Positions 22,726 through 46,995 of a stretch of DNA of 64,000 nucleotides are shown here, one piece after another. Each line of letters starts with the position of its first letter. The first letter of the stretch is position 1. The position numbers were made by a program, and so were the translations under genes. The stretch comes from Dehalococcoidia bacterium (lineage in GTDB: Bacteria; Chloroflexota; Dehalococcoidia; Tepidiformales; Tepidiformaceae), in NCBI GenBank assembly GCA_020850615.1, contig JADZEI010000002.1:1-64000 (forward strand), read 5' to 3'. Under the pieces are notes generated by a model. The model worked only from the letters and a program-made list of their open reading frames with translations. It did not search any database and was not told the origin of the DNA.

Positions 22726-23169
22726 GAACATGCCTCCTTGCGCGAGCACGCGCGGCCCTTTCGGGGCTTCGAAGATTCGGGCGCGCCGCAGCCTGGCACG
22801 CCGGTTGTCGCGAGGGCTCACTATACAGGTGGGTGGCGGATGGTCTCGGGGGAATCGTGTTCGGGTTGGAGTTTTTCGGTCGGGGCGGAGCGGAGTGCCC
22901 AGTGCGCCGTGCCCCGTGCCCAGTGCCCGGGGCGGGTTCCCGGTGCCCAGTTCCCAGTGGCGGGGTGAGCCGTGTCCTGAATCCCGCGTGCGAGCGATTA
23001 CGGGAGGGGCGCACCCTCACCCACGGCCCCTCTCCCGGAGGGAGAGGGGAGTTCTGTTCGGGCGAGATGGGGATGAGTTGTGCGAGCCTGCAGCGTCCGC
23101 CGGTGTTCGGGGATGCGAAAACGCGCCCTGGTGGGCGCGTTTTGTGTGGGGTGCCAGTGACGCGAGGGG
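22726..23169. repeat. Repeat-bearing gap
   Basis: 444 bases without a gene. 22898-22960 is a run of nine degenerate heptamers (CCCAGTG, CGCCGTG, CCCCGTG, CCCAGTG and so on). 23014-23051 is a CCCTCACCC palindrome copy with a 10-bp perfect stem (CCCCTCTCCC/GGGAGAGGGG). 23118-23143 is the rplT terminator. Confidence 0.8.
23118..23143 (-). terminator. Terminator of the infC-rpmI-rplT operon
   Basis: Perfect 11-bp stem AAAACGCGCCC / GGGCGCGTTTT with loop TGGT, 27 bases after the rplT stop. On the minus strand it ends in a TTTT run. The symmetrical A/T ends would also let it act on the other strand. Confidence 0.9.
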
Positions 23170-27689: not shown

Positions 27690-28145
27690 CTACGAGGGTC
27701 CCTGCGCGCGGCGACCGATCCGCTTGAGCCTGCTCTCGATCGCTCCGGGGTTGCGTCCAAGGTGGCCGGCGATCTCAACGATGGGCGTGCCAGCATTAAA
27801 CAGGCCGACGATTCGCTCTTCATCGGCCGGCGTCCATGGCTCGTAGGCACGAGGGTACAGGCGCCGGGCTTCCTCGATGTATCCCGGGACCGTCGCCCAC
27901 GGGACGCCAGGCCGCACGGCGGGGGAGGAATCCGAGGCAAGAGCGATTGCGGCTACGCGCGCTGCTCGTCTCACGTCGTCGTGGGTTACCCGATAGTCAG
28001 CCAGGATCTCATCGATGCTCCTCCCGTCCGCCAGTGATGTGAGGATGACGATGTCGATTGGTCGGGCATGGTGCTCCACCGGCGCATAGTAGTGATTGGG
28101 CCCTCGTCCGACAATGGACTCACCGATGTCTTCGGTGCCCGCCAA
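27690..28145 (-). CDS. DUF433-like protein with C-terminal helix-turn-helix
   Basis: The N-terminal part reads ARPIDIVILTSLADGRSIDEILADYRVT in two halves (first half before DGRS, then IDEILADY), which matches the compact HTH-like fold of DUF433, often found as antitoxin-type proteins. The C-terminal ~50 residues (AYEPWTPADEERIVGLFNAG ... LGRNPGAIESRLKRIG) look like a SANT/Myb-type helix-turn-helix. The start is uncertain: TTG 28145 is one option, overlapping the sodX end by 26 bases. In-frame ATG 28280 lies within the sodX coding region. No toxin partner is adjacent. Possibly a regulator, unproven. Confidence 0.55.
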   Translation of the reverse strand: MAGTEDIGESIVGRGPNHYYAPVEHHARPIDIVILTSLADGRSIDEILADYRVTHDDVRRAARVAAIALASDSSPAVRPGVPWATVPGYIEEARRLYPRAYEPWTPADEERIVGLFNAGTPIVEIAGHLGRNPGAIESRLKRIGRRAQGPS

Positions 28146-28545
28146 CAGGCCAGTAGCGCCAGCGGGCGCGGGCGATGATGGATTCGACGGGGATGGGGCC
28201 GAAGTGGCGGCTGTCGCGGCTGTGGGCGGCGTTGTCGCCTTCGAGCCAGGCCTGACGGTGGAGGTCGATGCGGACGACACGCTTGAGCAGCGTCCGCGTG
28301 GGGTCGGTGGGGTCGGGGGCGATAACGGCGTGGCTGGGTGCGGGGAGGCGCCGGCGGTAGGCGTGGCGGTCGGCGATGAGCCAGTCGCCGTGGCGGTAGG
28401 CGGGATACATGCTCTGGCCGGAGACTTCGTAGCGGATGAAGCGGTACTTCGCCCAGACGAGGAAGGCGGCGAGCTCGATCGTTATGGCGAGGACAGCAAG
28501 AAGCGGGGCCAGCCGCACGTGCGATTGGCCCCGCTTCGATGTCAT
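28120..28545 (-). CDS. sodX: Signal-peptidase-like protease, probable Ni-SOD maturation protease
   Basis: A 141-residue S26-family serine protease with one membrane helix (~residues 13-31), catalytic Ser45 in SGQSMYP and Lys88 in TLLKRVVRID. The closing block EGDNAAHSRDSRHFGPIP is typical of signal peptidase I relatives. It starts 10 bases after sodN; in Ni-SOD operons the adjacent small S26 protease removes the SOD propeptide so that His1 and Cys2 can bind nickel. Codons 3-15 form a perfect 12-bp hairpin (28500-28537), which may limit its expression. Confidence 0.9.
   Translation of the reverse strand: MTSKRGQSHVRLAPLLAVLAITIELAAFLVWAKYRFIRYEVSGQSMYPAYRHGDWLIADRHAYRRRLPAPSHAVIAPDPTDPTRTLLKRVVRIDLHRQAWLEGDNAAHSRDSRHFGPIPVESIIARARWRYWPVGGHRRHR
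28500..28537 (-). promoter_or_regulatory. Strong hairpin at the sodN/sodX junction
   Basis: A perfect 12-bp inverted repeat (GAAGCGGGGCCA / TGGCCCCGCTTC) encloses a 14-base loop that itself contains the palindrome CGCACGTGCG. It starts six bases inside the sodX start codon (28545), so it lies in coding sequence. It could stall or terminate transcription or block ribosomes between SOD and protease. Confidence 0.65.
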
Positions 28546-28555
28546 GGCGCCGGGA

Positions 28556-29002
28556 TCAAGCGGGGTTGGCGAGGTAGAAGGGGACTTCGCGGCCCTTGGT
28601 GGCCCAGAAGATGTCGTGCACGTCCTTCACGGCGTCGAGGAGGGCCTGGCCGTTGGCGGGGTCGATCTCGTGCTTGTTCTTGGAGGCGAGCTTGGTGGCC
28701 TTCCAGAACTTGTCGTGGAGGTCGGGGTACTTCTCGAGGTGCTCGGGCTTGAAGTAGTCGTGCCAGAGGACGTCGAGCTCGTGCTTCACGACGTCGGCCT
28801 GCTGCTCCTTGATCTGGATGAAGCGGGTGCGGGTGTTGACGGTGGCGGGGTCCATGGCGTCGCCGAGGGCGAGGGCCTTCTTGGCCATGGAGAGGACGGC
28901 CTCGGCGGCGATGCGGGCGGACGCGGGGTCGTAGACGCCGCAGGGGCCATCGCAGTGGGCATGCGCGACGTTGGCGGGGCGCAGAAGACGAGCGAGGAAC
29001 AT
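28556..29002 (-). CDS. sodN: Nickel superoxide dismutase precursor
   Basis: Ni-SOD converts superoxide to oxygen and peroxide. The 148-residue precursor has a short propeptide (MFLARLLRPANVAHA) followed by the nickel hook HCDGPCGVYDPA. After cleavage His16, Cys17 and Cys21 become His1, Cys2 and Cys6, the nickel ligands. The rest matches the four-helix family (IKEQQADVVKHELDVLWHDY, FKPEHLEKYPDLHDKFWK, DVHDIFWATKG). AAGGAG precedes the ATG by eight bases. It is downstream of a perfect TATAAT and followed by its protease. The hook's third loop residue is Gly rather than the commoner Leu. Confidence 0.97.
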   Translation of the reverse strand: MFLARLLRPANVAHAHCDGPCGVYDPASARIAAEAVLSMAKKALALGDAMDPATVNTRTRFIQIKEQQADVVKHELDVLWHDYFKPEHLEKYPDLHDKFWKATKLASKNKHEIDPANGQALLDAVKDVHDIFWATKGREVPFYLANPA

Positions 29003-29068
29003 GGTGGGGACTCCTTCTCAGGTGATGGCGGCCGGGGGGCCGACCCTTGTGGTGGGTGCGAAGGATGA

Positions 29069-29074
29069 TTATAC
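29069..29074 (-). promoter_or_regulatory. sodN: Candidate -10 of sodN (TATAAT)
   Basis: A perfect consensus TATAAT on the minus strand about 67 bases before the sodN start, rare in such GC-rich DNA. No good -35 is visible at 17-18 bases, so an activator or extended recognition may be involved. Confidence 0.55.
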
Positions 29075-39469: not shown

Positions 39470-39490
39470 GGTTACGGGGCAGAAACGACG

Positions 39491-39518
39491 AAAGAGCCGG
39501 CGAGTACGCCGGCTCTTT
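39491..39518. terminator. Bidirectional terminator
   Basis: Perfect 12-bp stem AAAGAGCCGGCG / CGCCGGCTCTTT with loop AGTA, between the convergent small gene and bactofilin gene. The A-rich and T-rich ends suit termination on both strands. Confidence 0.93.
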
Positions 39519-39544
39519 CGTTTGTTGGCCCGTTCAAGTGGTGG

Positions 39545-44105: not shown

Positions 44106-44265
44106 GGGAGGAGGATAGCAGGCCGCCCGGCCACCGCCACGCCCCGGTGCCCGGTGCCCGGTGCCCACAGGGGCGTGCGGCGGGGAAACGCCTGAGCTTC
44201 GTGGCACGCGCGGGCCCTCACCCCCTGCCCCTCTCCCCCCGGGGGAGAGGGGAGTTCATTGGGGA
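44106..44265. repeat. Heptamers and CCCTCACCCC palindrome
   Basis: 44144-44164 holds three CGGTGCC heptamers. 44215-44254 holds a palindrome copy with stem CCCCTCTCCCC/GGGGAGAGGGG. No gene is seen. Confidence 0.75.
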
Positions 44266-46758: not shown

Positions 46759-46995
46759 CGGACCGCTCCTTCCCGCCGGGGTGAGGATACCAGAGACGGG
46801 GGGGCAAGTGGTGGGTGGCGCGGTGGTAAAGGGGCGAGGCGGGGGCCAGCGCGGGGCATGCGTTGGGCTGACCCGCCGCCGAGGCTGGGCTCGGCGGACT
46901 ACCCCGCTGCGCGGGCGGGGTGCGTGCCCTCACCCCCGGCCCCTCTCCCGGAGGGAGAGGGGAGAACGGCGTGTGCGTGTCGTGCGCCTCGGGGG
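46759..46995. repeat. GTAG-type REP plus CCCTCACCCC palindrome
   Basis: 46876-46914 has stem CCGCCGAG/CTCGGCGG, then ACTAC, then CCGC-TG-CGCGG. 46927-46964 is a palindrome copy with a 10-bp perfect stem. The two elements lie in tandem in this gap. Confidence 0.8.

Follow-up and report, generated by a model that had tools for sequence, protein, structure and literature searches.

The question raised by this locus is why the gene for a putative maturation protease of nickel superoxide dismutase (Ni-SOD) should carry a long, perfect hairpin within its first codons, directly behind the gene for the enzyme itself. An earlier note had placed a 12-bp hairpin at 28500-28537, inside the start of sodX, and had proposed that it acts by termination, ribosome blocking or mRNA processing. 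We addressed this question in the whole 64,000-nucleotide stretch of DNA that contains the locus (the window), and by comparison with related loci, all of them from the Chloroflexota.

Layout of the sodN-sodX locus

The first gene, sodN (28556..29002, minus strand), encodes a nickel superoxide dismutase of 148 amino acids that scored 178 bits against TIGR02753 (cut-off 90). It is preceded by the Shine-Dalgarno (SD) sequence AAGGAG (29011..29016, minus strand; -8.8 kcal/mol). Further upstream, a TATAAT (29068..29073, minus strand) is by its sequence a possible -10 element of the sodN promoter; it has no good -35 element, and a promoter consensus scan listed none at this position. The second gene, sodX (28120..28545, minus strand), encodes 141 amino acids and was identified by profile matches and adjacency to sodN as a putative Ni-SOD maturation protease of the S26 signal-peptidase type. 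It scored 60.2 bits against signal peptidase I (TIGR02227), above the cut-off of 47, and 50.4 bits against the sod_Ni_protease profile (TIGR02754), below the cut-off of 63.25, and the name sodX is putative, being based on genomic context and a partial profile score.

The sodN stop codon is followed by a spacer of 10 nt (TCCCGGCGCC; 28546..28555, minus strand) and then by the sodX ATG, with the hairpin starting 18 nt past the sodN stop. No SD sequence is present in this spacer, whose best anti-SD pairing was -1.7 kcal/mol. The two genes are co-directional and functionally linked, which is the setting that an internal operon terminator requires.

A hairpin in the first codons of sodX

Stem enumeration reproduced the coordinates of the earlier note exactly. 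The hairpin (28500..28537, minus strand) has the sequence GAAGCGGGGCCA-GCCGCACGTGCGAT-TGGCCCCGCTTC, with a perfect Watson-Crick stem of 12 bp and a loop of 14 nt, and this loop does contain the inner palindrome that had been described (CGCACGTGCG). It occupies nt 9-46 of sodX, from the end of codon 3 into codon 16. Among perfect stems with loops of at most 20 nt, only one in the window is longer (15 bp, at 39488-39521). The 44-nt fold within the 90 nt past the sodN stop was stronger than those of all 36 control windows (36/36) from the same locus. When sodX was recoded synonymously with local codon usage, none of 500 recodings reached the observed folding energy (z = -6.0), and none of 20,000 gave a 12-bp stem, the maximum being 11 bp. 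Judged from these sequences, the hairpin is either under selection at the nucleic-acid level or an extraordinary accident, and the comparison with relatives presented below decides for selection.

The genome carries a dispersed palindrome, CCCCTCTCCC-n-GGGAGAGGGG, at 75 places, against none for a reversed control pattern. Its copies in the window lie at 23027-23049, 44228-44252 and 46940-46962; copies are often paired, about 80-180 nt apart, and the element looks like a REP- or MITE-like repeat. Given such a family, the sodX hairpin could in principle be a further dispersed repeat, or a mobile palindrome inserted into the gene. Unlike the CCCCTCTCCC palindrome, however, the hairpin is single-copy (every other genome site has at least two mismatches to its arms), and the stems that relatives carry at the same place are unrelated to it. 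Weaker arm matches were not enriched either, with 26 genome-wide against 38 for a reversed-pattern control. On the grounds of its single copy we rejected an origin from a repeat, to which we assign a negligible probability. A search of Rfam gave nothing above the gathering score, the best match being ar35 on the opposite strand (18.3 of 45 bits).

Terminator properties of the hairpin

Terminators were scored with the d'Aubenton-Carafa discriminant (d), which, as implemented here with ViennaRNA energies, combines stem energy per nucleotide with a weighted T-tail. The core stem-loop, GCGGGGCCAAUCGCACGUGCGGCUGGCCCCGC (28503..28534, minus strand; 32 nt, -25.8 kcal/mol), had d = +29.8, a value reached by none of 24 local controls. 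Among 1080 controls from the same loci, 18 were above d = 0, one was above 20 and none was above 25. The foot of the core stem-loop consists of nine perfect G+C base pairs, a stable hairpin of the kind that intrinsic terminators have, and its start 21 nt past the sodN stop is a position suited to such a terminator. Behind the stem lies a U-tract, UUCUUGCUGU (28493..28502, minus strand), with 6 U in 10. The start of this tract falls within the 12-bp stem described above (GCGGGGCCA...UGGCCCCGC, then UUCUUGCUGU): the outer three pairs of that stem (GAA/UUC) arise where the first U-tract bases fold back on GAA at the base of the 5' arm, and the core stem itself extends only to 28503. The same bases encode part of Leu-Leu-Ala-Val, the opening of the sodX transmembrane segment, and the U content of the 9 nt past the stem was above synonymous expectation (20/500 recodings). 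A U-tract is thus present, though modest beside those of loci L006 or L002, so that the efficiency of termination may be low.

A scan of the whole window on both strands found 13 sites with d > 15, of which most follow a stop codon on their own strand by 19-42 nt. Within this stop-proximal, terminator-like group, only the sodN site lay inside a downstream same-strand gene, in a comparison for which genes were called crudely, by codon GC bias. A simple terminator scan of the window missed the 28500-28537 site because its loops were limited to 3-8 nt. On the plus strand, the palindrome at 28503-28534 also scores as a weaker terminator (d = 17.5), which may halt antisense transcription from the sodX side.

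Comparison with relatives

The family of the window genome comprises 38 genomes in our working taxonomy, and the near relatives include Dehalococcoidia MAGs and Tepidiforma. The window genome is the only one of its genus among the genomes compared, so that relatives of its sodX are only about 40-53% identical. As hairpins were selected as hairpins, counts of compensatory pairs would be circular, and we took position, controls and recoding as the evidence. The check proposed in the earlier note, namely whether a hairpin is kept despite codon changes at the sodN-sodX junctions of relatives, was clearly positive in position, recoding and terminator score.

Twelve of the 14 sampled family loci with an adjacent sodX had d of at least 15, with hairpins at +17 to +37 past the sodN stop and stems unlike one another. 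The exceptions were L007, with no terminator-like hairpin, and L008, whose hairpin lacks a good tail (d = -3.6). The stem reads GCGGGGCCA in the window, CGGGGCAGGC in L002, CAGGGGTGGCA in L011 and CGGGGGAG in L010, and is different again in L023 (CGGGGCGG), L020 (GGGTGGCC), L026 (GAGGGGCGGC) and L003 (GCCCCGTGACTC). Canonical U-tracts were found in L006 (UUUUUUUG), L002 (UUUUUC), L020 (UUUUUG) and L011 (UUUUCC).

In 11 of the 14 loci the first codon of sodX lies ahead of the hairpin or inside it, and the frame runs open through it. Under Fisher p-values that assume independent loci, and that kinship makes optimistic though the stems share little sequence, the in-frame hairpins of these 11 loci were stronger than their recodings (p = 8.5e-12), and the U content after their stems was above synonymous expectation (p = 1e-3); 12 distant Chloroflexota loci (sodN about 50% identical) also showed fold strength beyond recoding (p = 1.4e-6), and U enrichment after the stem was not found in them (p = 0.998). 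These recodings bear on the idea that the hairpin is a by-product of the protein, in which a need for N-terminal Arg-Gly...Ala-Pro would be served by CGG GGC...GCC CCG, complementary by chance. Patterns of the type RG...(L)AP/TP/PL are indeed repeated in many sodX N-termini, but recodings almost never fold in this way, in the window or in the family. Moreover, coding does not explain the hairpin, because L003 and L004 carry it outside the sodX frame, and it is found in loci without an adjacent sodX as well. We regard a by-product of the protein as exceedingly improbable and rejected it, since synonymous recoding contradicts it.

Where sodX is not adjacent, as in family loci L036, L037, L040, L044, L045, L066, L116 and L124, d was positive in all eight (7.7-30), with the hairpin at an equal distance past sodN. 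The SAR202-type loci L068, L072 and L075, in which the protease gene lies upstream of sodN, likewise have a terminator-like hairpin behind sodN. Because the hairpin is present also where sodX lies elsewhere, it belongs to sodN and not to sodX; by the evidence of these loci, the conserved property is that sodN ends with a hairpin, rather than that sodX begins with one.

The same comparison bears on a processing or stabilising element, by which the sodN-sodX transcript would be cut, the stem would shield the sodN 3' end and the sodX part would decay. A strong stem near a stop codon suits a 3' protector, and the internal terminators of cellulolytic clostridia likewise stabilise the upstream mRNA (PMC9045158). 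However, the family's U enrichment beyond codon expectation and the terminator scores indicate termination, and protection of the 3' end would add to termination, not replace it. We therefore consider processing in place of termination to be improbable.

Other arrangements were seen among the relatives. One whole genus of the family, g17 (L015-L019, L022, L025 and L028), lacks a convincing terminator: it has only a G+C-rich fold at +34 to +77, without a good tail, which speaks against the terminator reading there. L193, L195 and L198, from other families of the class (sodN identity about 50%), have terminator-like hairpins across the sodX coding start (d = 21-30), and a hairpin at this place may thus be older or may have arisen repeatedly. 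In genus g16, apparently Tepidiforma, sodN and a sodX homologue lie about 27-30 kb apart (G021:C1:1999433 and 2029171, and other g16 genomes), so the overlapping arrangement is not universal in the family.

Translation signals at the sodX start

The sodN SD sequences of six relatives (-7.9 to -10.2 kcal/mol) were similar in strength to that of the window. Overlapping sodX starts had little or no SD in the nine family loci scored, including the window (+1.0 to -4.3 kcal/mol), whereas the sodX starts beyond the hairpin region had strong ones, at -9.5 in L003, -10.7 in L004 and -13.9 kcal/mol in L007; this contrast has n = 3 on one side, and the position scored in L003 (+75) reads ACA, the true start being a few bases off. 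To judge by this contrast, overlapping sodX genes seem to be served by ribosomes arriving from sodN. In the window, the sodX start cannot be shifted past the hairpin, because ATG, GTG and TTG are all absent between the hairpin and the membrane segment.

It is conceivable, though unlikely in our view, that no termination takes place, and that the hairpin instead folds over the sodX initiation region, so that SodX would be made only by ribosomes coming from sodN. Counted from the A of the sodX ATG, the hairpin starts 8 nt downstream, a distance that an initiating 30S subunit could span; 2-13 nt separate start and hairpin in most compared loci, and sodX has no SD. Against a purely translational block, the hairpin stays at the same place where sodX is absent, and U-tracts of the terminator type, which such a block would not need, are present.

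Unusual starts were observed in some relatives. L026 has an open sodX frame past the sodN stop that contains no ATG, GTG or TTG. The only possible starts ahead of its hairpin are CTG codons at +12 and +15, which again hints that weak starts are common in overlapping sodX genes. In g17, sodX is in frame with sodN, with a single stop codon between them, and no usable ATG, GTG or TTG start precedes the membrane segment (the one such codon in L016 and L025, a GTG at +58, falls inside the segment). An ACG stands three codons past the sodN stop in all eight of these loci, and their single length difference, of 3 nt, preserves the frame. Initiation at ACG and read-through of the stop codon, which would give a SodN-SodX fusion, are both possible.

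The tail of sodN also contains CCCCGCTT (28558-28565), which is complementary over 8 bp to AAGCGGGG of the hairpin's 5' arm (28529-28536), and the sodX start codon would fall within the loop closed by this alternative pairing. We dropped this pairing as a candidate antiterminator, as it is absent in relatives and occurs in this genome only.

A probable terminator of sodN embedded in sodX

Our preferred explanation, which we hold to be probable, is that the hairpin and its U-rich tract form an intrinsic (Rho-independent) terminator of sodN that is leaky or overridden by translation and is embedded in sodX, with read-through giving sodX. The comparison with relatives supports the functional reading of the earlier note, and of the three possibilities named there the evidence favours termination. 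As only 8 nt of the sodX frame precede the terminator, the terminator would double as codons 3-16 of the protease. Most polymerases that pass sodN would stop at about 28490-28500, so that short sodN transcripts, shielded at the 3' end by the hairpin, would be abundant, and a minority would read through to yield a sodN-sodX mRNA. Because this terminator would lie downstream of the sodX start codon, full-length sodX mRNA would all be read-through RNA, with no bypass by a private promoter, and some read-through is logically required if SodX is made.

Since sodX has no SD sequence, its translation is probably the work of ribosomes that finish sodN and start again 10 nt further on. When bound at the sodX start, a 30S subunit would have a footprint that extends over the 5' arm of the hairpin, and sodX initiation and hairpin formation should for that reason exclude each other: read-through would be favoured by a restarting ribosome, and restart would be prevented once the hairpin had formed. 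The need to read through the terminator probably holds protease levels low in comparison with the SOD, its substrate, so that the purpose of the arrangement would be little protease and much enzyme. More tentatively, it is possible that the arrangement works as a translation-gated switch, in which a ribosome restarting at sodX occupies the 5' arm while the 3' arm has yet to emerge from the polymerase, and the protease gene is transcribed only with a closely following ribosome. The terminator, the missing SD and the weak starts would then together fix the ratio of enzyme to protease, and this might have been kept across the Chloroflexota while the stem drifted.

Relation to known systems

Like ordinary intrinsic terminators, the sodN element combines a G+C-rich stem with a U-rich tail and follows a stop codon at about 20 nt; unlike them, it also serves as codons 3-16 of a second gene, one whose expression SOD maturation requires. 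In ribosome-mediated attenuators, of which bmrCD of Bacillus subtilis is reportedly an example, translation decides whether a terminator hairpin forms, as it could here, but sodN-sodX lacks both a leader peptide and a conserved antiterminator pairing; the 8-bp pairing described above was the only alternative found and is confined to this genome.

Internal intrinsic terminators that set stoichiometry, with long stems and weak U-tracts, have been described in the ABC-importer operons of cellulolytic clostridia (PMC9045158). The sodN hairpin resembles them in lying right behind the abundantly needed first gene and before its partner gene, and in its long G+C-rich stem, weaker U-tract and expected partial read-through (PMC9045158). 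However, the clostridial stem-loops are intergenic by that search's own definition (PMC9045158), whereas the present hairpin lies inside codons 3-16 of sodX and the overlap is found in 11 of the 14 family loci; at this place the terminator could not be bypassed by an internal promoter and would compete with translation initiation. In Streptomyces coelicolor, the available part of one report describes regulation of Ni-SOD by Nur and by the sRNA s-SodF, which derives from the sodF 3' UTR and pairs with sodN mRNA (PMC3919588). The 3' hairpin terminator and the post-transcriptional control of SOD genes are features that the two systems appear to share, but a terminator within sodX is not among the features described in that part of the report (PMC3919588). 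Internal terminators that set stoichiometry are thus known; in the open-access literature we found no report of a conserved terminator that occupies the first codons of its own target gene, nor of any such element in sodN-sodX.

For annotation, the locus is a warning that a strong terminator is not always the end of a coding sequence. Under the termination reading, one short stretch of DNA would be selected simultaneously as transcription terminator and as protein-coding sequence, and sodN-sodX would be a natural case of competition between translation initiation and intrinsic termination. A terminator placed past the start codon would offer an operon a simple way to fix an unequal ratio of an enzyme and its maturation factor.
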